Shown here one piece after another: positions 2,307-23,546 of a stretch of DNA of 24,209 bases. The stretch is from a virus. Where the stretch lies: positions 1-24,209 of the IMG/VR virus record IMGVR_UViG_3300025840_000240; one strand, 5' to 3'. The notes beneath the pieces were generated by a model. The model was not told the DNA's origin and did not search any database. It was given only the letters and a program-made list of their open reading frames with translations. Positions within the stretch are counted from its first letter, which is position 1; every line of letters begins with the position of its first letter. The position numbers and the translations under genes were made by a program.

Positions 2307-4520
2307 ATGGTACGTCGGCATCTCTATATTTATAAACGCCGACTTCTGTCGTACCTATTTTCGACTGCTGCAGGGTCGATTATAATTTTCGTGTACGGAG
2401 TTCTTTCTCCTACAACTGCATATGCCGCTGACTCCCCAGCAGAGGAGGTTCAACTCGAACAAGAACCCAGTATCCAAGATTCCAGTCCGGATGCGTCTGA
2501 GGAGGTGGTCCAAGATGCGGCATCGCTTGAGTCAACGCAAGACTCTCTCGGTGATGTTGCAACCGCAGCAGCAGCAGCGGAATCTGATATTCAATCCACA
2601 AATGAGTCTTTGCAGGAGGTTGTCAACCTAGAGCAAACAATTACGTCAACTGACGAAACCGCCGAGGCGATTGCTAGTGCAACTCAGGATGTGGAAAGCG
2701 CAGAGGCTTCGATTGCAGTAGTCAACGAAGCAATCCAAAACGCCGAAACTGCACTCTCAGACTGGGAGCAATCAATATCAGATGTTGAGTCACAACAAGC
2801 GGTTGTAGCAGACAAGCAAACAGTTCTAGAAGAAGCTGAGTCTGCACTAGCAAACGCCGAGGCTGATTACCCCGTAGAGACGACAGTGACGGAGGACTTC
2901 GAGGACGAAGACCTTTCAGATTCAGAAATTGTTATCACCGTTGGTGATACACCAGTTTCATCTTCTCCGGTCGCAGGTGTGTCAATCGTAGACATTCCGG
3001 ATGACGACCCTTTCGTAGACAACGGCTTCACGCTCAACCTAGAAGAAGCAACTGATGATGTCTACATCTACATGCCAGAGAGCATCAGGGTTTATGAAGT
3101 TGGGTTCGATGTTTTTGCCAAAAACGGCGACGAGCCTTACTTAGTAATCGAGTACGACGCAGAAGGAACAACTTCTGTTGTAGAAAACACCCTCCCCGAC
3201 TACAGCACCGCTGAGCCCAAAGAAGGCACTGGTGGCATCGGGTATGTCGTTAGTTACACAGCAACTGAGGGTTTGTCGATTGGGTACTTGAAAATCCCAG
3301 CCACTCCAGAATACGACTGGTATACCCTCGACAACTTTTACTACAAGTATTTTGATTACATCATCAACCCTTCCTACCAACAGGAGGTTGACGATGCAAC
3401 AGCCAATCTTGGGTCCGCCCAAACTGACTTGACCAGCTATGAAGAAGTTCAGTCAGCCAATCAATCTTTGGCTTTGGAAGCGTTGGAGACAGCACAGAGC
3501 GCAGAGTCTTCAATGCAAGAAGCCATTAGCGCAGCGCAAACTTCAGTTGCTACGGCAAGTTCTGTCGTTCAGGAAGAAGTAGAAAATCAAACTCCAGAGC
3601 CAGAACCTGAGCCTAAACCTAGTTCCCCAGCTCCTGCTCCCACCCCGGAGGTAGAACCTCAACCGACTCCTCAACCTGAGCCAACCCCCGAGCCTGCTCC
3701 TGAGCCCGAGCCTGCTCCTGAGCCCGAGCCCGAGCCCGTCGCCCCCGAACCCGAACCTGAGCCTGAGCCTGTTCCCGAACCTGAGCCTGAAGTTGTTGAC
3801 CCTCCTGCTGAAGAGCCCGTAGCTCAGCCTGTTCCTGAGCCTCAACCTGAAGCATCCTCTGAAACCCCAGAACCAGAGATATCAGAGCCAGACCAAGAAG
3901 AACCCCAGCCAGAGTCAACACCAGACCCAGAACCACCCAAAGAATCTTCACAAGATAATTTTGACACAATAATAGAAGAGCCAGAGCCCACTCTTGAGCG
4001 TGTCGCTGAAGAATTGATGGCTGACGGTGAGCTGACTGAAGAAGAAAAAGAAGTTGTTGTCGAGTTGCTGGTCGAGACAGCTGCGAAGTCCGGCACAGTT
4101 ATCACATCCGATAATCTTGAGGAACTCGGTCTCGACTACTCAGACCTCCCGGATGAAACGCCGGTTGAGGTCAGAACAGACTCGTCTGGAAACCCAGTTG
4201 TTATATCGGCAGAAGTTGCTGAGTCTTTAGAAGTTTTTGATGACCCCGGGAAGCTTCTCACCGAAGCTTTTACTGACCCCGGAAAAGTTTTGACCTCTTT
4301 CTCCTCAATCGGTATGGACATGACCGAAGAGGAGCGGGAGGAGTCCCAAGAAGTCGTGGTTGCCGCAGTCATTGTGGCTCAAGTTGCTCAAGTGGCTTCT
4401 CTGGCAACCGGACTCGCTGGTGGAGGCGCACCTCCAGCACCGCCAACCCCAAAGACCCCGAGTGGAAGCGGTGGCGCACCCGCCTCTGACTCCCCAAAAT
4501 CTAGAAGGAATAAGAAATGA
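2307..4520 (+). CDS. Secreted or membrane-anchored coiled-coil protein with Pro-Glu stalk
   Basis: I choose ATG 2307, preceded by AGGGG at 2296-2300, giving 737 residues; GTG 2286 would add seven residues without a good ribosome site. The N-terminus is a clear signal peptide: basic [10 protein letters not shown], a hydrophobic core, then AYA|AD near residues 40/41. After it come a coiled-coil region (about 60-187, Ala/Glu/Gln/Ser-rich), an all-beta domain (about 188-355, with tracts like [16 protein letters not shown]), a second coiled coil (about 359-425) and a Pro-Glu repeat stalk (about 429-545, PEPEPEP). An acidic domain follows, then a hydrophobic segment (about 683-708) and a Pro/Ser tail ending RRNKK. 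There is no LPxTG sorting motif. It looks like an envelope-spanning or surface protein made in the infected cell, not a standard virion part. It is coupled to the next gene by an ATGA overlap. Family not recognised. Confidence 0.8.
3591..3941 (+). repeat. Pro-Glu (PEP) repeat stalk coding region
   Basis: Low-complexity sequence built from GAGCCC/GAACCT-type codons encodes alternating Pro-Glu with a few Val, Ala and Gln. Pro-Glu tracts of this kind form stiff extended rods in TonB-like and Gram-positive wall-spanning proteins. The DNA repeat is imperfect through synonymous codon change, so it is kept by selection on protein rather than being a recent expansion. Confidence 0.75.
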
Positions 4521-4702
4521 AAAAATTCATTAGAGGCTTTATAAAAGACATGTTGGACCAAGTGTGGACTCTGCTAGGAATGTTTATCGCATGGTTCGTG
4601 CTAGATGGCTCTGCTAGAACGGTCGTTGGCTGGGCTATTTTGTGGTCTCTGTTGGTCTGGATGGGTACATATCCCTTCCGTTCTAAGCATTCTGACGATT
4701 AG
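4517..4702 (+). CDS. Small two-helix membrane protein coupled to the surface protein
   Basis: A 61-residue protein whose ATG overlaps the previous stop (ATGA at 4517-4520), with AGAAGGA upstream. A basic N-terminus (KKFIRGFIK) leads to two hydrophobic segments at about residues 15-31 and 36-53, separated by the short turn DGSART. The tail PFRSKHSDD is hydrophilic. By topology both ends are probably cytoplasmic. Size and hairpin topology fit small phage membrane proteins, including class II-type holins, but there is no endolysin beside it. The coupling to a secreted stalk protein suggests instead a partner that anchors or exports it. The function is not assigned. Confidence 0.75.
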
Positions 4703-4801: not shown

Positions 4802-5263
4802 ATGAGCCAAGAGCTCGTAGAAGAATACGCTGCCAAGATTGAGCCAATCTTGCCACTGGCAAAGAAGGCTTACGGTCGGCGCAACCAAGACACACCTGCC
4901 CACCGAGCAAGTAAGCAGTACACCGACCTCCTCAAGGAGTTTCAGGAGAAGGGCGGAAGTCTTCCTAAGCTCGCTGAGCGCATCAATGTCGCCTACGCAG
5001 GTGTTCGCCGCCGTGTTGCAATGAGCAATGTTGTTGTCAGCGAATACAAGCCAAAGATTCGCCTCAAGGAACAAAACATTGAGGCCGCTGCTGAGCGTGT
5101 TCGCTCTGCCAAGGAAAAGGGAACTGACCTTTATCACGACCAACTTCGGTCGGAGTACATGTCTGGTATCTCACTTTCCAACTTGGCGAAGCACATGGGT
5201 CTCAGTTCTGCTGCTCCGCTCTATTATGGAGTGCAGAGGAGTCTTCAGCGTCAGACTAGGTAA
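4802..5263 (+). CDS. DNA-binding-type protein, candidate small terminase subunit
   Basis: A 153-residue basic, mostly helical protein with GGAGAG at 4793-4798 just before the ATG. Two stretches have helix-turn-helix character: residues about 52-72 (SLPKLAERINVAYAGVRRRV) and about 121-145 (GISLSNLAKHMGLSSAAPLYYG). Both have the pattern of helix, Gly/Ala-containing turn and recognition helix, and the ends are rich in Arg/Lys. It sits 14 bases before the large terminase on the same strand, the usual place of TerS. TerS recognises the packaging site on phage DNA and regulates the large subunit. The sequence does not match a TerS family that I can name, so the assignment rests on position and DNA-binding features. 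Confidence 0.6.
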   Translation: MSQELVEEYAAKIEPILPLAKKAYGRRNQDTPAHRASKQYTDLLKEFQEKGGSLPKLAERINVAYAGVRRRVAMSNVVVSEYKPKIRLKEQNIEAAAERVRSAKEKGTDLYHDQLRSEYMSGISLSNLAKHMGLSSAAPLYYGVQRSLQRQTR

Positions 5264-5277
5264 GGCAGGTTTTCCCT

Positions 5278-6690
5278 ATGGGTAAGAGTTTGATGGAACA
5301 AATAGCCCTCTTACCCGAGGACGAGAAGCAGCAGGTCCTTGCTGGTCTAGACATGGACAGTCTCGTTTGGGACTGGTCTGCATGGGCCAGACCCGAACAA
5401 AGACCCCCCGATAACACCAACTGGAGTATCTGGTTATACCTAGCTGGTCGTGGTGCGGGCAAGACGAGGAGCGCAGCGGAGTGGATTCGAGAGAAGGCTA
5501 AGGATACTTCTCAAGGTCAACTTCGCTTCGCCCTCGTCGCCCGTACCGCAGCAGACGTTCGTGACGTTGTAGTTGAGGGTGAGTCAGGTGTTATGAACAT
5601 CTGCCCACCATCTGAAAGACCACACTATGAGCCATCTAAAAGAAGGCTCACATGGCCTAACGGGAACACAGCCACTCTTTTGACCGCTGATGAGCCAGAT
5701 GGTCTTCGTGGTATTCAGGCTCACTACGCTTGGGCCGACGAGTTGGCTGCTTGGCGTCAAACTCCCGATGCTGCTGGCATGACTTCGTGGGACAACCTTC
5801 GAGTTGCGACTCGACTCGGGTCAAACCCACAAATTATTGCGACCACGACTCCAAAACGAGTTCCAGTTCTGTACTCGTTGATTGAAGAATCGAAAAAAGG
5901 TCGAGTTGTTATCTCGAAAGGTTCAACTCTAGACAACGCTGGCAACTTGTCGAACACATACTTGCAAGCCATTACCGGAGTGTATGAGGGAACCCGTCTT
6001 GCTCAGCAGGAGCTTTACGGTGAAATGCTTGATGACGTTGAGGGCGCTCTTTGGACAATCGAAATGATTGAAGCAGCCAGAGAAATGATTCTCCCTCCGA
6101 GCACGCCACTTCGTTGTATTGGGGTTGACCCATCAGTTGCAGAAAATCCACGAGACGAGTGCGGCATCGTTGTTTGCGCTTCCACTGCCGACCGAGACCT
6201 CTACAAGCGACATGCTTGGGTTCTTGAGGATGCAACTATCCACGGTTCTCCGGAGGTGTGGGCCAACAAAGTTGTTGAGATGGCTCGACGTTGGGGTTGC
6301 CCAGTTGTAGCCGAAGTCAATCAAGGTGGAGCACTAGTTCGTAACGCAATCAATGCGATTGACCCCAATGTAAAAGTTTTAGAAGTTCACTCAAAACACG
6401 GGAAAGCTTTGCGAGCAGAGCCTGTTGTTCTTGCCTACGAGCAGAGCAGGGTCCACCACGTTAACTACCTTCCAGACCTTGAGTCTCAGATGACAGCATG
6501 GATTCCGGGAGAAACCAAAAACTCACCTGACCGAGTAGACGCTTTGGTCCATGCAATGACTGCCTTGCTTATCAAACCACCGTCAGGTTTCTCTGGAGGA
6601 AAGTTGAAGGCAAAATCTCCAGCAGCCAGACGGCTCCCCTCACATCGGGGTATGCAGGGTGGTGGCGGAAGAGTGTTTACCGTTCGCTAA
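5278..6690 (+). CDS. Terminase large subunit (packaging ATPase and nuclease)
   Basis: This is the motor that threads phage DNA into the procapsid and cuts it. It is a full-length 470 residues. The Walker A motif is LAGRGAGKT at 55-63, the Walker B is YAWADE at 150-155 (D154, E155), and the ATPase coupling motif IIATTTPK is at 186-193. The RNase H-like nuclease domain shows D284 in IGVDPS, E346 in VVAEVNQGG, and the late acidic pair D418/D421 in SPDRVDALVHA. This arrangement fits the Terminase_6 type family. The start is ATG 5278, with weak AAGG/AGG upstream; ATG 5293 is an alternative five codons in. No portal gene follows. The next gene is convergent and its stop touches this one at 6690/6691. 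Confidence 0.95.
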   Translation: MGKSLMEQIALLPEDEKQQVLAGLDMDSLVWDWSAWARPEQRPPDNTNWSIWLYLAGRGAGKTRSAAEWIREKAKDTSQGQLRFALVARTAADVRDVVVEGESGVMNICPPSERPHYEPSKRRLTWPNGNTATLLTADEPDGLRGIQAHYAWADELAAWRQTPDAAGMTSWDNLRVATRLGSNPQIIATTTPKRVPVLYSLIEESKKGRVVISKGSTLDNAGNLSNTYLQAITGVYEGTRLAQQELYGEMLDDVEGALWTIEMIEAAREMILPPSTPLRCIGVDPSVAENPRDECGIVVCASTADRDLYKRHAWVLEDATIHGSPEVWANKVVEMARRWGCPVVAEVNQGGALVRNAINAIDPNVKVLEVHSKHGKALRAEPVVLAYEQSRVHHVNYLPDLESQMTAWIPGETKNSPDRVDALVHAMTALLIKPPSGFSGGKLKAKSPAARRLPSHRGMQGGGGRVFTVR

Positions 6691-9276
6691 TTATCTAGCT
6701 AGGTTGCTGGCTGAGTACCAGTCAACTTCTGTAGAGACAGATACAGACCTCATCACGATTTTTCTTCCGTGGACTTCTGCCTTTGCTCCAAGACCTTCTA
6801 CCTTTAGGTTTCGGTCAACTAGCTTTCTGTGAAAAGCAATCTGAGTCATTGCTTTCTCTCCACGGTCTTCTGACCACTTTCGATAGAGACCGTATAGAGA
6901 TTTGACCGGAGTCTTCTCCCCCTCAACTTCTTCTGTCTCTTCTGATAAGAAAATTCCGATTCGGTCTTCGTTCTTTCGATAGACCTCTGCTGCTTCTGCC
7001 ACGACCTTGCACCAACCGAGCGCATCTTTAGAAGTCGAGTTGAGAATCTGCATTGCTCCTTCGACCGCCCAAGCAAGAACTGCAGGGAGTGCACCCTCCG
7101 GGTCAAAGATGTAGTCCTTGAGGTCGGGGTCTGGCTCTTCTGGAACTCGAAGGAATGGGATAGGTCGGATGCGTCGCCACATAGCGTCATCGGTGATGAT
7201 GGGTCGGTGGTTAGTCGAGACCCACAGTTTCGCTTGCGACTGGAACGTGAACGGTTGTTCACCCGGAGAACGTGCTGAGATTTCGGAGGAACCCGTCAGC
7301 TTCTTGACCGAGTTTTCTTTGAGTCGCTCAGAGTCTGGTAGCTCGTCCACCCAAACAACACGACGACCACGCAATTGAGCCCAGTGGTAAAGGTCGGAAC
7401 CGCTTGCCTGACCGTCTCCTTGAGCAAGAATGCTTGAGTCAAGAGGCCATGCGTACTGCTGTGTGCCTAGTGCTTTTACAAGAGCCTCAACAAAAGTGTT
7501 TTTACCAGAACCCGCAGGTCCATAAACCAAGAACATCAAGTCATACTTGCTCGAACCAGTCAACGAATAACCGGCTGCTCTCTGTAGCCAACCTTGGAAT
7601 TCTTTATCTCCACCAGTTGCAAAGTTAAGGAACTCTTCCCATCTGGCGTTCCTGTGACCTGCGGTGTAAGCAACAGGAGCACGACGAGTGATGTACAAGT
7701 CCGGACGACCCTTGAGAAGTTCTCCGGTTTTGAGATTGATTACCCCGTTGGCAACACCCAAAAGGTTTTGGTCTTTATCCCAGCCTTCGACAGATACCTC
7801 AACACGAGGGTCTGACTTTGCGCTCTCAATCGCTCCATGAAGTCTGGCGTTGGAACGAGATTGATGAGCCCACCTAATCACATCGGTCTGCTGCGATTCG
7901 GGATAGCTACCTACGTCAGTCGAGATGATTGACCCCAACCTCTTGGCTAGTTCTTGAACTTCGAGGTCTTCACGGTCTGGCTTCCAGTAACCCTCTTTCC
8001 AAACGAACCAACCGAGACCTGTGGTGTATCGAATACCCGTACCAAAAACATCGACAAGACGACGACCGTTACCGGTGTCCGACAGCGAGCGTCGTCTTTC
8101 GTCCCCACCATCCTGAGGGCTCAGAGAATCCGGGTCTTTAGGGATATCCATGTTGGAAATGCTTGCTGCATCCGAAATGGAATCTCCATCTTCAATAGAA
8201 GCGAGAATGGCTTCTTTGCCATAACGCATTGCGCCTTCACCTTGCACTGGAGCGACAACTCCAGTCATAGCCTTAGGTTGCTCGTCGGGAGAGAGGCTTT
8301 TTGCTTGCTTCTGCATCCACTCGGCTGTCTCCGGAGAGATGATGCCAACCTTCGGGTTATCTGCAACAAAGTCGATAGCACGGTGAACGTGATGGAGAAG
8401 ACCGTTGGTTCCCTCGATGTGAAGCGGTGGACGCACCTTCTCGGTGTTGAAACGAATCATCATCGTCTCAATCATCTGCCGAGCCATGGGGTCGGTCCCG
8501 TACTTGTTCGCCAAAGAGCAGGTGGCCTTGTAGATGTCTACGGCACGGGAGCCTTCATCAATGCCCTCTTCAAGAATCTTGTCAACATCTACTGTTGGCT
8601 CGTAGTCCAACCAGTCCCAGTTGCCCTCATCAAGAGTGAAACTGGTCTTGCGAGCTCGCTTGCGAAGAACGGCGAGGAGTTCCTCGGGAGCCTCTGCCAT
8701 TTCCATCTCCCATGGAGCGTGACCCTCAACCCACTCGTAGTCCACTCCGGAGAAGTGCTTGCTCGGGGCAATCAGCACATAACCGTTGTGCTTGATGTCA
8801 ATACCCTTGAGCCCCATCTTCGTGAGGTTGCCAACCAGACCTTCTGAGTTGTCGCATCGGTAGAAGATGTGACGACCCCGCTGGGGCTGACCGTTGTCTC
8901 CGGTGTAGGTTCCGGTAATCGCTTCGATGGTTGGAGGGAGTGCTCCTTCGACCATCTCTTCAAACTTTTGGAAAGACTGAGGACCACCCGAACGGGGGTC
9001 AATGTCAATGACGAAGAACCCGGACTTGGAGCAGTGAACTCCTACGTTGTAGTTGGGGTCTGTCTCCCACCACTTTGTGATAGTTGAAAGGTCGCTAGTG
9101 GATTGAATGTTCCACTCGGACAGGGCGGGGTGCTTACCTACCTCTTTAGGCTCGCCGTGAGCTTTGTCACAGGTACACCTTCCCCCCACGATTCCGTAGC
9201 AGGGCAGGATGTTCCAGTCGATGCTCCCATAGAACGCTGCTGCTTTGGCTTGCCTCGTCGTTTCGTCGTTAGACAC
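6691..9276 (-). CDS. Bifunctional primase-polymerase / SF3 (D5-type) helicase
   Basis: An 861-residue replication protein and the only minus-strand gene. The N-terminal prim-pol domain has an early Cys/His set (C34, C36, H40, H49 ahead of GKHP), the metal-binding DID at 91-93, GRHIFY (H136) and IDIKHNGYVLIAPS (159-172). It would lay down primers. A linker (about 205-420) leads to a D5_N-like region. Then comes the helicase: Walker A GPAGSGKNT (586-594), Walker B VVWVDELP (640-647), motif C LWVSTNHRP (684-692) and arginine finger WRRIRPIPF (700-708). A winged-helix-like end follows. The start is GTG 9276 with GAGG upstream. The protein would unwind and prime phage DNA at an origin. Its stop abuts the terminase stop with no space between. 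Confidence 0.93.
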   Translation of the reverse strand: MSNDETTRQAKAAAFYGSIDWNILPCYGIVGGRCTCDKAHGEPKEVGKHPALSEWNIQSTSDLSTITKWWETDPNYNVGVHCSKSGFFVIDIDPRSGGPQSFQKFEEMVEGALPPTIEAITGTYTGDNGQPQRGRHIFYRCDNSEGLVGNLTKMGLKGIDIKHNGYVLIAPSKHFSGVDYEWVEGHAPWEMEMAEAPEELLAVLRKRARKTSFTLDEGNWDWLDYEPTVDVDKILEEGIDEGSRAVDIYKATCSLANKYGTDPMARQMIETMMIRFNTEKVRPPLHIEGTNGLLHHVHRAIDFVADNPKVGIISPETAEWMQKQAKSLSPDEQPKAMTGVVAPVQGEGAMRYGKEAILASIEDGDSISDAASISNMDIPKDPDSLSPQDGGDERRRSLSDTGNGRRLVDVFGTGIRYTTGLGWFVWKEGYWKPDREDLEVQELAKRLGSIISTDVGSYPESQQTDVIRWAHQSRSNARLHGAIESAKSDPRVEVSVEGWDKDQNLLGVANGVINLKTGELLKGRPDLYITRRAPVAYTAGHRNARWEEFLNFATGGDKEFQGWLQRAAGYSLTGSSKYDLMFLVYGPAGSGKNTFVEALVKALGTQQYAWPLDSSILAQGDGQASGSDLYHWAQLRGRRVVWVDELPDSERLKENSVKKLTGSSEISARSPGEQPFTFQSQAKLWVSTNHRPIITDDAMWRRIRPIPFLRVPEEPDPDLKDYIFDPEGALPAVLAWAVEGAMQILNSTSKDALGWCKVVAEAAEVYRKNEDRIGIFLSEETEEVEGEKTPVKSLYGLYRKWSEDRGEKAMTQIAFHRKLVDRNLKVEGLGAKAEVHGRKIVMRSVSVSTEVDWYSASNLAR

Positions 9277-11705: not shown

Positions 11706-11717
11706 GGAGTGCCGCAC

Positions 11718-11720
<3 letters not shown>
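11706..11720 (+). promoter_or_regulatory. Ribosome binding site deciding the fibre start
   Basis: GGAG at 11706-11709 lies eight bases before ATG 11718. The in-frame GTG at 11709 overlaps this site and would have none of its own, so ATG 11718 is the start. Confidence 0.65.
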
Positions 11721-16583
<4,863 letters not shown>

Positions 16584-16590
16584 GTGAAAA

Positions 16591-17298
16591 ATGGCAGCGA
16601 TTGATTTTCCAGAAAGCCCACAGGTAGGAGATACCTATACAAACGGTATTAACGTTTATCAGTGGGACGGAACAGCATGGCGTCTGGTTCGCACTAGCGC
16701 TGTTGGACCCACCGGTCCAGCAGGTCCAGCAGGTGCTGATTCAAATGTCACTGGGCCTACAGGACCTACCGGCCCCTCTGTAACAGGACCTACTGGACCT
16801 GCTTCAACAGAGGTCGGACCAACCGGTCCTACAGGGCCTACTGGAACGTTTGCTATCTCTGCTTGGACTACGTACACACCTCAGTGGACTGCTGCTACAA
16901 CTAACCCAACAGTTGGAGATGCCAGTGTTACCGCTCGATACGTTGCAATTGGTGCAACTGTTATCGGGGAAATTCGAATTACTGGTGGAAGCTCTGTTAA
17001 CGGGTTTAACAGAGGTTCTGGTGCTTACAGTTTTTCGCTACCGACTGACGCTGTTGCTGCTACATATCAGCCAGTTGGTCAAGTGGTCATGCGTAACGAA
17101 GGACCGGGAAATCAGTTCTTCGGGACAGCGATTTTTACTAGCGTAACTAATGGAATTGCCAACACAATTCAGTGTTACATGCATAGCCAGACAGCAACAA
17201 TTGACGAAGGTGTTGCAGCCACCGAGTCAACTCCGTTCCTTTTCGATGTGAACGACAAGATTCTGATTCAGTTCATCTACGAAGCAGATTTGACGTAA
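16591..17298 (+). CDS. Short collagen-like fibre with C-terminal receptor-binding head
   Basis: A 235-residue protein. Residues 1-38 form the shared head module (MAAIDFPESPQVGDTYTNG, YQWDGTAW) found at the start of three genes here. A 47-residue collagen tract (39-85) follows, then a C-terminal beta head (86-235) starting WTTYTPQWTAATTNPTVGDA, with GEIRITGGSS and YSFSLPTDAVAAT. This start resembles the YTPxWT heads common at the ends of phage fibres. It begins seven bases after the giant fibre with only a weak GGTG ribosome site, so it is probably translated by coupling. It is likely a tip or side fibre that binds host surface glycans. Confidence 0.85.
   Translation: MAAIDFPESPQVGDTYTNGINVYQWDGTAWRLVRTSAVGPTGPAGPAGADSNVTGPTGPTGPSVTGPTGPASTEVGPTGPTGPTGTFAISAWTTYTPQWTAATTNPTVGDASVTARYVAIGATVIGEIRITGGSSVNGFNRGSGAYSFSLPTDAVAATYQPVGQVVMRNEGPGNQFFGTAIFTSVTNGIANTIQCYMHSQTATIDEGVAATESTPFLFDVNDKILIQFIYEADLT
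16705..16845 (+). repeat. Short collagen-like tract
   Basis: About 15 triplets, GPTG and GPAG units with SNV/SVT inserts, linking the attachment head to the C-terminal head of the 16591 gene. Confidence 0.8.
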
Positions 17299-17307
17299 GG
17301 GTAGATA

Positions 17308-19191
17308 ATGGCAGCGATTGACTTTCCCGATAGTCCAAATGTAAACGACACGTTTACAGTTGGTCCGCAGACTTGGATTTGGACAGGCACTGCGTGGGAC
17401 TTGACTGTAGCGCCAGTGATTGGACCTACTGGTCCCACCGGTCCGCAGGGTGCTGCTTCAAACGTAACTGGGCCCACTGGTCCGACAGGTGCTTTCACCA
17501 TTTCGGAAGACACTCCTCCATCTAATCCAGATGAAGGAGATGCTTGGTTCAATTCCTCTACCGGTCAAATCTACGTTTATTACGACAGCTACTGGGTTGA
17601 GTCTGCTTCTAGCAATGTTGGCCCTGCTGGAGCAACTGGCCCGACTGGAGCAACTGGTCCACAGAACATCACCCCGGGACCTACAGGTTCAACCGGACCA
17701 ACAGGTGCAACTGGTTCTCAAGGAAACACCGGACCTACTGGTCCCCAAGGTCTTTACGTAGAAGGACCTACTGGACCTCAGGGTCCAACAGGACGACAGG
17801 GCCCGACCGGTGCTCAGGGAGAGCGTGGCGTTGAGGGACCAATTGGTCCTATCGGACCTACAGGTCCACTAGGCCCGACCGGAGCAGACGGCCTTCTTGG
17901 TGCTACTGGTTCCCCGGGGCCTACTGGTCCGACTGGTCCTCGTGGATTCCAAGGTGCAACAGGTGCTCAAGGACCGACTGGTGCAACTGGTGCTTCGGTA
18001 ACTGGTGCAACAGGTTCAACTGGACCGACTGGTCCCTCGGGTGGCCCCACGGGAGCGACCGGCCCGACAGGACCAACTGGTGCGACGGGTGCTCAAGGCG
18101 AGCTTGGTCTTCGTGGAGCAACTGGCCCTACCGGTGCGACGGGTGCCGCTTCAACGGTTGCTGGACCTACAGGTCCGACAGGTGCATCTATTACTGGACC
18201 CACGGGACCCACGGGTGCCATTGGAATCACCGGTCCTACAGGACCTTCGGTAACTGGTGCAACAGGCCCAACTGGCGCTGAGGGTCTCGGTTATGGAGGC
18301 ATTACCTCTACAACGAACATCATTATTGGTGCCGGTAATAAAACATTTACAGTCAACGACCCGGGTGCCTTTGCTATCGGTGGTCGTATTCGATTTGCCG
18401 CTCTTTCCCAGCCGCAGGATTACATGGAAGGTGTTATTACTGGTGTTGCTGGCCTCAGCATCACATTTGTTTCTGATATCTACAACGGAACTGGTAACAC
18501 TTACAACTCTTGGTTGGCAAGCATTGGTAGTGGCCCTACAGGACCAGCTGGCGCTACAGGACCCGTTGGACCATCAATCAACATTAAGGGAACAGTTGCC
18601 AACTTTGCGTCACTTCCCTCTTCAGGCAACGTTATTAACGATGGTTGGATTACCGAAGACACAGGAAGTCTCTATGTGTGGTCTGACCAGTCAACGTGGG
18701 TTGATGCTGGACAAATTGTTGGAGCAACGGGGCCGACAGGAGCAACTGGTCCATCAATCACAGGACCAACCGGACCAACTGGCGCAGCTTCTACAGAAGT
18801 TGGGCCCACCGGTCCGACCGGCCCATCCGTCACTGGTGCAACAGGCCCAGCCGGTCCTACTGGTCCCGCTTATTACGAGCTCGTTGGTAATCAGTATCTA
18901 GAGAACACGGTTCTTGACGAAGAAGATGGAGCCAGCATCGTCAAGATAAACAGCTCCGTGTCCACGACAGTGACTGTTCCAGCAGACGGGGCAAACGGTT
19001 ACACGTTCCCGACAGGAACTCAAATTGTTATTACCCAGCTTGGTGTCGGTCAGGTAACTATCCAAGGAGACACCGGAGTTGTTGTGTTGAGCGAGGGAGC
19101 CAGATACACAACCAAAGCTCGATACGCAATTGCTTCTCTCATCAAACTATCCAGCAACTCTTGGCTACTGAGCGGAAACTTGTCGGCGTAA
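17308..19191 (+). CDS. Mosaic collagen-like fibre
   Basis: A 627-residue fibre with AAGGG upstream of the ATG. It opens with the same head ([27 protein letters not shown]). The order is then a short collagen link, a type B module (63-104), a long collagen tract (about 105-328), and an insert at 329-410 ([20 protein letters not shown], later [18 protein letters not shown]). That insert matches a module widespread in phage fibres, which I recall as beginning TSTTSxTIGxGxKTFTV. Next come a type A module (424-471), more collagen, and a C-terminal beta domain (522-627; [20 protein letters not shown], then [12 protein letters not shown]) also familiar from phage fibre ends. The gene is a clear mosaic of parts shared with the giant fibre. 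Confidence 0.88.
17494..17619 (+). repeat. Type B beta module, copy 3 (mosaic fibre)
   Basis: [18 protein letters not shown] and [12 protein letters not shown]. It is identical to copy 1 over [16 protein letters not shown], which is the clearest sharing of a module between the two genes. Confidence 0.85.
18292..18530 (+). other. Phage-fibre insert module in the mosaic fibre
   Basis: About 80 residues: a strand with Ser/Thr repeats, the core [33 protein letters not shown] and a final Trp strand. I recognise it as a frequently met phage-fibre module of unknown function. Confidence 0.7.
18577..18720 (+). repeat. Type A beta module, copy 5 (mosaic fibre)
   Basis: [32 protein letters not shown] and WVDAGQIVG. 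It is the most diverged type A copy, closest in its INDxx segment to copy 4. Confidence 0.75.
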
Positions 19192-20330: not shown

Positions 20331-20981
20331 GTGGCAGCAATTGATTTCCCAACCCCCACAGTTGTAGGTGAAGAGTTCACCGCTGGAAACAGCACTTGGG
20401 TGTGGACAGGCACTGTTTGGGAGCTAAAGCGCACTGCTCCCACTGGTCCTCAGGGTCCACAAGGTATTCAAGGACCAACAGGTGCAACTGGTGCTAAGGG
20501 TGACACAGGTCCTCAAGGTATTCAAGGTGCTACAGGACCCGTTTCTGACGTTGCTGGTCCGCAGGGACCCACAGGTCCAACTGGTGTTCAAGGACCCACT
20601 GGACCTCAAGGTATTCAGGGTGAACTTGGTACTCAGGGTCCAACAGGTCCCACAGGTGCTGACTCGAACGTAACCGGGCCTCAAGGTCCCACGGGTCCTC
20701 GTGGGCAAACTGGTCCTACCGGTTCGACTGGCCCTCAGTCTGAAGTTCCCGGTCCAACGGGTCCAACGGGTCCGGTAGGTAAGTTCATTGCTAGTCCGGT
20801 TCAGCCAGACATTGGATTGGCTACTGATGGAGATACTTGGTTCGATACCGGAACTGCCATTACATATGTTTTCTATAACGGTGTTTTCGTTAGAACTCAG
20901 GGCGGGCAAACCGGACCGACTGGCCCCCGGGGCTTGCAGAGTACCTACGCAGTCTCGACTGCGTGGTGGTTAGGCGTATAA
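20331..20981 (+). CDS. Collagen-like fibre without a C-terminal head
   Basis: A 216-residue protein with GTG start and very strong ribosome site. It opens with the shared head ([27 protein letters not shown]). Collagen triplets follow (39-150; unusually rich in GPQGIQG), then a diverged type B module (151-193; [21 protein letters not shown]). It ends about 23 residues later in [16 protein letters not shown]. Unlike the other two genes with this head, it has no large C-terminal domain. It may be naturally short or may have lost its head. The end ([11 protein letters not shown]) is hydrophobic and aromatic and could be a capping or docking peptide. A candidate promoter overlaps its stop codon. 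Confidence 0.85.
20445..20780 (+). repeat. Collagen-like tract of the headless fibre
   Basis: About 37 triplets, GPQG/GIQG/GPTG type. The higher Gln content sets it apart from the Thr/Ala-rich tracts of the giant fibre. Confidence 0.8.
20781..20909 (+). repeat. Type B beta module, copy 4 (headless fibre)
   Basis: DGDTWFDTG and [14 protein letters not shown]. Diverged: Val-Phe-Val replaces the usual Tyr-Trp-Val-Glu end, and the PP-x2-P start is reduced. Confidence 0.65.
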
Positions 20982-21074: not shown

Positions 21075-23546
21075 ATGCCCGGTTTTCTTGGCGGTAGCAG
21101 CGGCACTGGTGGCGGCACTGGTGGCGAAATCTCATTCCCGAAAGAGTTCATCGACCCAGTAACTAAGCTGCGTGTATCCACACCAGCCAACCTTATTGAC
21201 ACCGACTTTGAGTACGGTCTTCAGCCCACCAAGTGGGAGACACTAGAGCTAATTAACAACACCCCTTCGTTCTTCTCGAAGTCGGGTGACACGACCATCC
21301 CCAACATCAGTGCAATTAACACGATTCAGGGTTCTCGTGAAGTTACCGTCACAACAAGTCTGGACCACGGGCTTTCCGTCGGTATTCCCATCAACGTAAA
21401 CGGTACAAAGTCCATCACTGCAGATGGCGCTTACATCATCAACTCGGTACCTACCGCCAGAACCTTCACATATCTAGCCAAGGAAAATCAGTTTTTTACA
21501 GCCGCCATCGAAGACCTCTATACCTCGATTGTGACTGGCGAGTTCTTCCAAGGCTCGCAGATTCGTATTGCTGATTCGCACGGTTTGGTGACTGATGCAG
21601 CGACTCCCTCAACTCTGACTGTTACAACAGAGAGTCCTCATGGTTTTGGTATCAATACACCTTTCTACTTTCTGAATCTGAACTCCACTATTTCTCAGGA
21701 GTTTGATTCGACTAATACCGCCGCTAAAACTTTTGATTCCAGTAACAACTCAACAGCTCGTGTTTTTGATGCATCGAACACGGTGACATCAGCTAACTAC
21801 GACTTTTCTAATAGAACTGCAAGCCTTCCGGCTAGCGTTGCGGGAAGTCCAATCGCAGGTGTCAGCGTCGAAAATAATACAATTACTGTTGGTCATACAA
21901 CAGAGACGTTTGAGAATCGAGCTATTGGCACTCCTCTTTACTACGACGTAGTTGCGTCTAGTGGCTACTTTGCCAACAAACCTCGTGGAGTTGTCTTCCT
22001 CAAGGGGACCGACTCTCTAGGGGCTTCCCTTTCCACATTTACGGTTAGTGAAATCCCCAACGGAGATGTAATCGACATTACGTCAGCAATGACTGGAACT
22101 TTCCAAGTTGCAGACTTGGTTGCGGAGTTTGCTGGTAATAACCAAGATTTCGACAGTCAAATCTCTTTAACCATTTCAAGAGGAACAGCTCACGAATTTG
22201 ACGGAGACAACTCCGAGGGAGCTACCTACACGATAAACAGTATTAGTGGCCTTGGAAATATTGCCCTAAGCGGTGATAGCAACTGGTCTACCGGTCAGAT
22301 GGTGTACTACAGCACAGACGGTGCGGCTGCTACAGGTCTCACAAACAACACCACATACTGGGTTACAGCAGGTAACCCATCAGCCAGTGTTATTAACATT
22401 ACAGACACCCCCGACGGAGCAACCCTGACTGCCATTTCTGGCGGTACTGGAACCCAGACTCTGACCGCTACTTCTGTGTCTTTGGACAAAGATATTTTGG
22501 CTGTTCCCGGTCACGATTTTGAAGAATCAGACATGGTTTTGTACTCGTACCCAGCCGGTGGAGCGATTACAACATCAGAAGCCGCTCAGAACTATTACTA
22601 CGTTCAGAATGTCTACCCAGACGGAACCCACATTCGTCTAACAACCACTAAAGGCTTTGTTCTCGATGGAACCACTGAAGCCCGTGCTGCTTCGAGTGGT
22701 CAACAGATTCTGAACGACAACCCGGCTGCAACTAGTGGCACTTACTGGATTAAGCCCCCCGGTGGAACAGTTGCATACCCGACTTATGTTGATATGGACC
22801 TTGAAGGTGGTGGTTGGACGCAGATTATGAAGCTGTCCTACAACACACTGCTCAGTCCATACATCGGTCGCCCCGGTGGGGCAACCCATGCTGGTGCTGG
22901 CTACACCTACGGCCCAACTTGGGACGGCTGGGCGTGGAACCAAGACTCCGACTTCGACACCCTGTTTAACGACAGTTCGAATTCCGACTTCAGCGATGTT
23001 GACTCTTTCTCCAAGCTGTTTTACCAGCTCCCATTCAATGATGTGATGGTTGTGTCTATTGCCGACACAACTAAGCGTCTCGGATGGAGGCACAACGCTC
23101 AGATTGCAAACATGAGAGCCGTTACTGGTGGGACCGACCTATCTACATACGGAGATGAGTGGTTGTTCCCGGCAGTGGCGCAGTTGGAGTACTCGTGGAC
23201 CCGTCAGTTGGAGCTTTTCCCGAGTGCAAGGAACTACCAAGCTCAGACTCCAACAGTTTTTGGGTTCAAAGTTCTTTCCGACCGAGCAAATAACTTCAGC
23301 TCTATCAACAGTTATATGACCGGTGGTTACGACCCAGTTACATCAAACAACGTAACCGGTCACGGTGCATCTATGATTGGTATGGGCGGTACTGGCGGCA
23401 TTAGCGGGCGATTTGGTGGCGGTATCGGGTTTGCTTACACCTCCAACTATGCCTTCCGTGTTGGTGGTCACTTCTGGAATTCCAGCTTCAACACAAACGT
23501 CACTAACTACCGACTTTTCACTGGTTTGGCAGTGTTCGTCAGGTAA
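21075..23546 (+). CDS. Large virion structural protein with fibrinogen-like C-terminal domain
   Basis: An 823-residue protein. Its Gly-rich start (MPGFLGGSSGTGGGTGGEIS) and the following region (LIDTDFEYGLQPTKWETLEL) resemble the N-terminal part of large structural proteins of marine tailed phages. The middle is a string of beta repeats (for example GLTNNTTYWVTAGNPSA and NYYYVQNVYPDGTHIRL). The C-terminal portion, from about residue 553, opens with TSGTYWIKPPGGTVAYPTYV and DMDLEGGGWTQIMKL. This is the characteristic opening of fibrinogen-related domains (SGxYxIxP ... GGGWT). The end reads AFRVGGHFWNSSF and LFTGLAVFVR. Such domains bind acetylated sugars in animals. A glycan-binding role for a phage adhesin is inferred. 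The canonical disulfide cysteines are absent. Confidence 0.82.
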   Translation: MPGFLGGSSGTGGGTGGEISFPKEFIDPVTKLRVSTPANLIDTDFEYGLQPTKWETLELINNTPSFFSKSGDTTIPNISAINTIQGSREVTVTTSLDHGLSVGIPINVNGTKSITADGAYIINSVPTARTFTYLAKENQFFTAAIEDLYTSIVTGEFFQGSQIRIADSHGLVTDAATPSTLTVTTESPHGFGINTPFYFLNLNSTISQEFDSTNTAAKTFDSSNNSTARVFDASNTVTSANYDFSNRTASLPASVAGSPIAGVSVENNTITVGHTTETFENRAIGTPLYYDVVASSGYFANKPRGVVFLKGTDSLGASLSTFTVSEIPNGDVIDITSAMTGTFQVADLVAEFAGNNQDFDSQISLTISRGTAHEFDGDNSEGATYTINSISGLGNIALSGDSNWSTGQMVYYSTDGAAATGLTNNTTYWVTAGNPSASVINITDTPDGATLTAISGGTGTQTLTATSVSLDKDILAVPGHDFEESDMVLYSYPAGGAITTSEAAQNYYYVQNVYPDGTHIRLTTTKGFVLDGTTEARAASSGQQILNDNPAATSGTYWIKPPGGTVAYPTYVDMDLEGGGWTQIMKLSYNTLLSPYIGRPGGATHAGAGYTYGPTWDGWAWNQDSDFDTLFNDSSNSDFSDVDSFSKLFYQLPFNDVMVVSIADTTKRLGWRHNAQIANMRAVTGGTDLSTYGDEWLFPAVAQLEYSWTRQLELFPSARNYQAQTPTVFGFKVLSDRANNFSSINSYMTGGYDPVTSNNVTGHGASMIGMGGTGGISGRFGGGIGFAYTSNYAFRVGGHFWNSSFNTNVTNYRLFTGLAVFVR

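Follow-up and report, generated by a model that had tools for sequence, protein, structure and literature searches.

This locus raises the question of why a phage should carry, between a recombinase and its packaging genes, a large protein with the features of a surface stalk together with a very small membrane protein encoded by an overlapping gene. The locus lies in the IMG/VR virus record IMGVR_UViG_3300025840_000240, and the window is the whole stretch of 24,209 bases that was analysed. The gene order in the window's lineage is ThyX, resolvase, pair, HTH, TerL, and primase. A resolvase (1576-2256) precedes the stalk gene, and an HTH protein (4802-5263) and TerL (5278-6690) lie downstream of the pair, so that the neighbours named in a first, sequence-only reading of this DNA (a recombinase on one side, packaging on the other) are borne out. 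The ThyX gene (691-1419) encodes a flavin-dependent thymidylate synthase (PF02511, E = 5.7e-47). The window also carries a run of collagen-like (G-x-y repeat) fibre genes (11709-19191 and 20331-20981), with counterparts in phage DSL-LC01 and in the related genomes G009 and G012, and a putative tail fibre protein (21075-23546) whose C-terminal part (GTYWIKPPGGTVAYPTYVDMDLEGGGWTQIMKLSYN) may be a fibrinogen-like domain, judging from its sequence. In many phages, an HslV/proteasome-like protein is encoded near the pair, at a median of 0.8 kb downstream (e.g. L092:10299-10853). The stalk gene starts at ATG 2307, with an RBS-like AGGGG 5' of it and an in-frame GTG ahead of it at 2286. The features of the pair are the following:

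2307..4520, + strand: stalk gene, an ORF of 737 aa (last coding base 4517, stop 4518-4520)
2307..2426, + strand: predicted signal peptide, with a basic n-region, a hydrophobic core (2.33 over 11 aa), and an AXA motif
2484..2870, + strand: first coiled-coil segment (aa 60-188), heptad-rich helical sequence that relatives also have around the head
2874..3356, + strand: beta head domain (aa 190-350), all-beta in a low-confidence AF2 model and probably CBM-like by Foldseek
3360..3581, + strand: second coiled-coil segment (aa 352-425), also heptad-rich helical sequence
3582..3950, + strand: Pro/Glu rod (aa 426-548), with 48 P and 36 E in 135 residues
3984..4346, + strand: conserved, putatively membrane-proximal anchor domain (aa 560-680), with residues invariant across 43 relatives and an AF2 model of pLDDT 76
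4353..4421, + strand: C-terminal transmembrane-like helix (aa 683-705) by hydropathy, forming the last part of a helix of 30 residues in the AF2 model
4422..4517, + strand: Gly/Pro/Ser linker and basic tail, net charge +5, whose basic codons overlap the Shine-Dalgarno of the next gene
4503..4509, + strand: AGAAGGA, Shine-Dalgarno-like site of the two-TM gene, inside the last codons of the stalk gene
4517..4702, + strand: two-TM partner gene, 61 aa, of a family found in at least 596 contigs

The stalk features and the ATGA overlap with the 61-aa two-helix gene were thus confirmed in the sequence. The start of the two-TM gene lies inside the stalk stop (AAATGA), and the genes of the pair overlap in 53 of 61 relatives, 32 of them with the identical 4-nt ATGA overlap, which argues that this arrangement is not due to chance. 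An alignment of three two-TM members retrieved at least 596 IMG/VR contigs, and the stalk anchor alone retrieved at least 560. A stalk is encoded directly upstream in 61/61 two-TM loci with usable upstream DNA. Conversely, among the best 80 of the at least 560 stalk loci, 76 passed the adjacency filter for the two-TM gene, two more carry the gene with an overlap longer than the filter allowed (L187 and L194), and two are incomplete, which gives 78/78 assessable loci, counting near-identical contigs that are not independent. By these sequence counts the pairing is obligate, and the co-occurrence of both genes in other phages at such loci is answered affirmatively. The two-TM protein is itself conserved, with 16 invariant positions among 38 members, and is under purifying selection (median dN/dS of 0.12 over 236 pairs). 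Moreover, the family spans phages with unrelated terminases.

Further evidence comes from a second subfamily. The nearest annotated genome by terminase is that of Actinomycetia phage DSL-LC01 (OQ999401; TerL 80% identical), which encodes a hypothetical protein of 944 aa (WJZ48438.1) whose C-terminus is a two-TM segment and whose gene sits before the homologous HTH gene. This DSL-type subfamily was examined in 27 loci and is mostly fused: the two-TM part is joined to the stalk in DSL-LC01, L126, L133, L136, and L139-L142, and the stalk and an overlapping two-TM gene of 58 aa are separate in L146-L149. When the two-TM profile was compared with DSL-LC01 by single-sequence hmmsearch, the fused segment came only second (E = 0.06), and homology was therefore accepted only after a profile-profile test with controls, in which hhalign gave 94.2% for the two two-TM families and no more than 2.7% for 11 control small-membrane families from the same neighbourhoods. 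WJZ48438.1 resembles the window stalk in its slot before the HTH gene, its signal peptide, a similar head, rods, a TM-like helix, and the two-TM domain; it differs in that the two-TM part is fused and the anchor shows no homology to the window anchor detectable by sequence (hhalign 0.3%). This protein is uncharacterised and its genome is metagenome-assembled. In the cultivated Microbacterium phages that carry the HTH gene (Pumpernickel, Zooman, and Cece) no stalk gene is annotated beside it. The fusion and fission of the stalk and two-TM parts are good evidence that both work together. Together with the co-occurrence found in both search directions, they uphold the earlier suggestion that the two genes act as one unit, and the co-occurrence and physical coupling of the stalk and the two-TM protein are well supported at the sequence level.

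Regarding the conserved part of the stalk, the AF2 model of the anchor (pLDDT 76) consists of helices, a beta hairpin, and a final 30-residue helix containing the hydrophobic segment. A C-terminal signature is common to the stalks upstream of all 61 two-TM loci (DLPxxTPVEVRxDENGNxVVITAEVA...IGADMSxEEREE); because some of its motifs had been used for searching, part of their conservation comes from that selection, which does not apply to the remaining alignment. No PDB match to the anchor was obtained with Foldseek. Among the BFVD models, the anchor matches three uncharacterised proteins of uncultured Caudovirales phages, A0A6J5NEV5, A0A6J5NGG5, and A0A6J5P6J9 (28-46% identity, E = 1e-13 to 2.5e-6), which have the anchor in common with the window and differ in their heads. 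Nothing characterised in Pfam, PHROGs, or the PDB matched the anchor or the two-TM protein, and neither showed similarity in Pfam, PHROGs, PADLOC, or the PDB to superinfection-exclusion surface proteins of the T5 Llp type. Hits to LmuB (PADLOC), DUF6585, and the tape-measure profiles TMP_4 and phrog_167 were judged to be coiled-coil, membrane-composition, or labelling artefacts.

The stalk could in principle be a head or tail decoration, or a fibre, that passes through the membrane. The adhesins of phages usually belong to the virion (PMC13370021), and these phages often carry fibre genes, both collagen-like and other. However, none of the signal peptide, the C-terminal TM-like helix, and the overlapping two-TM gene is a feature of virion proteins; in G009 and G012 the gene is located outside the structural head-tail clusters, and one copy resides in a chromosome without virion genes (see below). 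The coiled-coil similarity to the two tape-measure profiles (E = 0.0036 and 0.021) was the sole structural-family match of the stalk. A virion role is thus very improbable, and the first impression that this is not a standard virion protein holds, since neither gene resembles a known virion protein and no homologue was found to be a known virion or lysis protein.

The predicted topology of the stalk is that of an exported and membrane-held protein. Cleavage of the signal peptide is predicted after AYA (aa 40), in an N-terminus ending SPTTAYA|AD. A simple signal-peptide test was passed by 51/61 family members, and the 10/61 that failed this crude test did so mostly through uncertain start codons. 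The C-terminal hydrophobic segment has a best 19-residue Kyte-Doolittle mean of 2.11; both the signal-peptide and the TM calls rest on simple hydropathy and pattern tests. The charge after the TM helix is positive in 61/65 relatives, so that the stalk combines a signal peptide with an N-out/C-in charge pattern. In the window, the codons of the basic tail (AGAAGGAG) double as the Shine-Dalgarno of the two-TM gene. Because of this embedded site, the charge of the tail is ambiguous as evidence of topology, and the conserved basic tail may reflect the Shine-Dalgarno (AGAAGGAGA encodes RRR) instead. An LPXTG motif, sought before the C-terminal helix, was absent from the C-terminal stalk sequences inspected. 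Concerning the outer part, the second coiled coil may pair with the first, which would put the head at the tip. The Pro/Glu rod of about 120 residues would measure some 35-40 nm if extended (at about 0.3 nm per residue), long enough to span a monoderm wall; its length differs between otherwise identical relatives (L020, 1263 aa, versus L021, 1147 aa).

The head is the variable part. Stalk pairs with anchors 87-98% identical have middles that are 6-48% identical, so the conserved anchor carries swapped heads, some of which are lectin-type by sequence. PA14 heads occur in 18/47 and 15/53 stalks of two sets, the head of L136 is an L-type (legume-type) lectin (E = 1.6e-40), fn3 is also among the recognised heads, and one BFVD relative of the anchor bears a SUEL lectin name in its annotation. 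The head of the window was found only in its own close population, and it matches a domain of the DSL-LC01 stalk by BLASTP (E = 2e-5). Its AF2 model is all-beta with a low confidence (pLDDT 43.6); in the Foldseek search of the PDB with this model CBM32, CBM29, CBM86, and GnT-IV lectin predominate (E = 0.009-0.1), and of the first 50 matches about 40 fall on carbohydrate-binding modules or on lectin or discoidin-like domains, the best with E = 0.009. The head is likely, not proven, to be a CBM-like jelly roll. What had been called an unfamiliar beta domain thus looks like a carbohydrate-binding module, a resemblance resting on that low-confidence model.

A lysis-related role had to be weighed since a CHAP endolysin cassette adjoins the pair in several lineages. 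In aquatic actinophages this cassette (G012:25238-26605, G009:123075-124048) comprises the lipoprotein LP73 (seen in G012), the 2-3 TM protein TM136, and the CHAP endolysin. In a large phage set with a 594-aa TerL, and in others, the pair is followed by the holin-like M96 or by LP73, TM136, and the endolysin. The nuclease label of phrog_26427 on M96 was among the matches set aside as artefacts. According to this explanation, a holin-like two-TM protein and a wall-bound stalk would help to time or complete actinobacterial lysis. A CHAP endolysin gene lies at most 2.5 kb downstream in 11/42 loci and within about 7 kb in 27/53, counts that are correlated by lineage, and M96 directly follows the pair in about 20 loci. 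In actinophages, a lysis cassette often contains more than one holin-like protein, and Girr pairs an N-in/C-in two-TMD protein with an N-out/C-in single-TMD protein (PMC13056207). The mycobacteriophage lysis proteins LysF1a/LysF1b are similar to the pair in that a protein with two TMDs (N-in/C-in) is encoded alongside one with a single TMD (N-out/C-in); unlike the stalk, their single TMD is N-terminal and there is no large ectodomain, and the pair is not tied to a lysis cassette. Indeed, in the window's lineage the cassette, which has membrane proteins of its own, is separated from the pair by 7 kb in G012 and by about 20 kb in G009, whereas the pair itself is never split, and no related CHAP gene is found near DSL-type loci. 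No holin family was among the matches of the 38 two-TM members, and the profile comparison with M96 and other small membrane families gave no more than 2.7%, so the two-TM protein was rejected as a holin. Moreover, lysis has no need of swapped lectin heads. An accessory lysis role is hence unlikely; the pair is a separate unit, often but not always beside lysis genes.

The sole cellular copy was found in a MAG of the freshwater actinobacterium acMicro-4, on a 292-kb contig of ordinary chromosomal genes without virion genes. This mini copy (L118:7018-8177) has a signal peptide, a short rod, the anchor, the two-TM protein, and a possible lipobox (TAGC), and it lies about 270 bp from a tRNA-Thr gene at 6760-6833, or about 185 bp when measured from the ORF start as called. 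Its existence shows that retention of the pair does not require a virion. It is the one match among 84,980 genomes, present in 1/400 family and 1/19 genus genomes; an origin of the pair as a host gene was rejected because only 1/400 family genomes has it. TerL kinship, nearby WhiB genes, and the acMicro-4 copy point to actinobacterial hosts. The tRNA-proximal copy, the serine recombinase adjoining the pair in the window, and the prediction of DSL-LC01 as temperate by BACPHLIP (PMC10611076) would also fit lysogenic or pseudolysogenic conversion, in which a host-surface gene on temperate phages benefits the carrier cell. Nevertheless, prophage carriage is as rare as these counts indicate and the window recombinase is a short resolvase-type protein, which leaves conversion with little probability.

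Considering all these data, the architecture of the pair is best read as a phage-encoded surface-display system, with a probability of roughly 0.75. The stalk would be exported, with its C-terminal helix keeping it in the host membrane, the Pro/Glu rod would carry the carbohydrate-binding head through the monoderm cell wall, and the head would face outside at the tip of a coiled-coil hairpin. The two-TM protein could be a dedicated membrane partner (an anchor, export, or assembly subunit) that stabilises or exports the weakly hydrophobic C-terminal helix. Heads are exchanged between phages on an anchor that stays, and the head would thus be what is fitted to the local sugar. By occupying or masking receptor glycans of the host surface, the stalk might leave the infected cell and the post-lysis debris unable to adsorb further phage. 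Since the pair is among late genes in many lineages, protection from debris fits better than early exclusion. The whole statement, adsorption blocking included, is tentative and falls somewhat short of an even chance.

The closest rival to this benefit is adhesion or aggregation, in which the displayed lectin would attach the infected cell to other cells nearby, to particles, or to grazers; lysis would then occur close to new hosts, or the infected cell would be kept in place or protected. The stalked-adhesin architecture speaks for it, as do the swapped heads with their adhesin-type domains (PA14, L-type lectin, CBM-like), and aquatic phages have been proposed to carry genes acting on grazer encounters (PMC6802176), but the planktonic, lytic context offers no direct support. 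Adhesion is possible, if rather doubtful; receptor blocking appears the most likely benefit, and the choice depends on the ligand.

The pair is a large family not described before, in viruses of freshwater and estuarine actinobacteria. It occurs in at least about 600 viral contigs and is missing from 50,697 phage records apart from one distant metagenome-assembled relative, which makes it a common strategy that cultured phages do not show. It may represent a new class of two-component phage system, in which a wall-spanning rod with an exchangeable lectin head is held by a conserved anchor and a dedicated two-TM protein; it would re-coat infected cells of abundant aquatic actinobacteria and would once have been captured, and stripped, by a host lineage, a proposal put forward with less than even confidence. 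If the surface of the infected cell is indeed masked or re-targeted, this would connect competition between phages with the surface glycans of bacteria that are among the most abundant in aquatic habitats, and the relevant glycans could be read from the head sequences. Fused and split forms, both of which occur naturally, are clean starting material for experiments.

Among known systems, T5 Llp is a host-surface protein encoded by a phage and proposed to prevent both superinfection and adsorption to the fragments of lysed cells (PMC9586334), a role like the one suggested here. However, Llp is a small lipoprotein that jams one outer-membrane receptor and an early protein (PMC9586334), with no lectin, rod, or partner. 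In architecture, the stalk is like the wall-spanning adhesins of Gram-positive bacteria, which have a signal peptide, a distal ligand head, a Pro-rich stalk, and a C-terminal anchor; these adhesins use LPXTG sortase anchoring, whereas the phage-encoded pair would use a TM helix and a two-TM partner.
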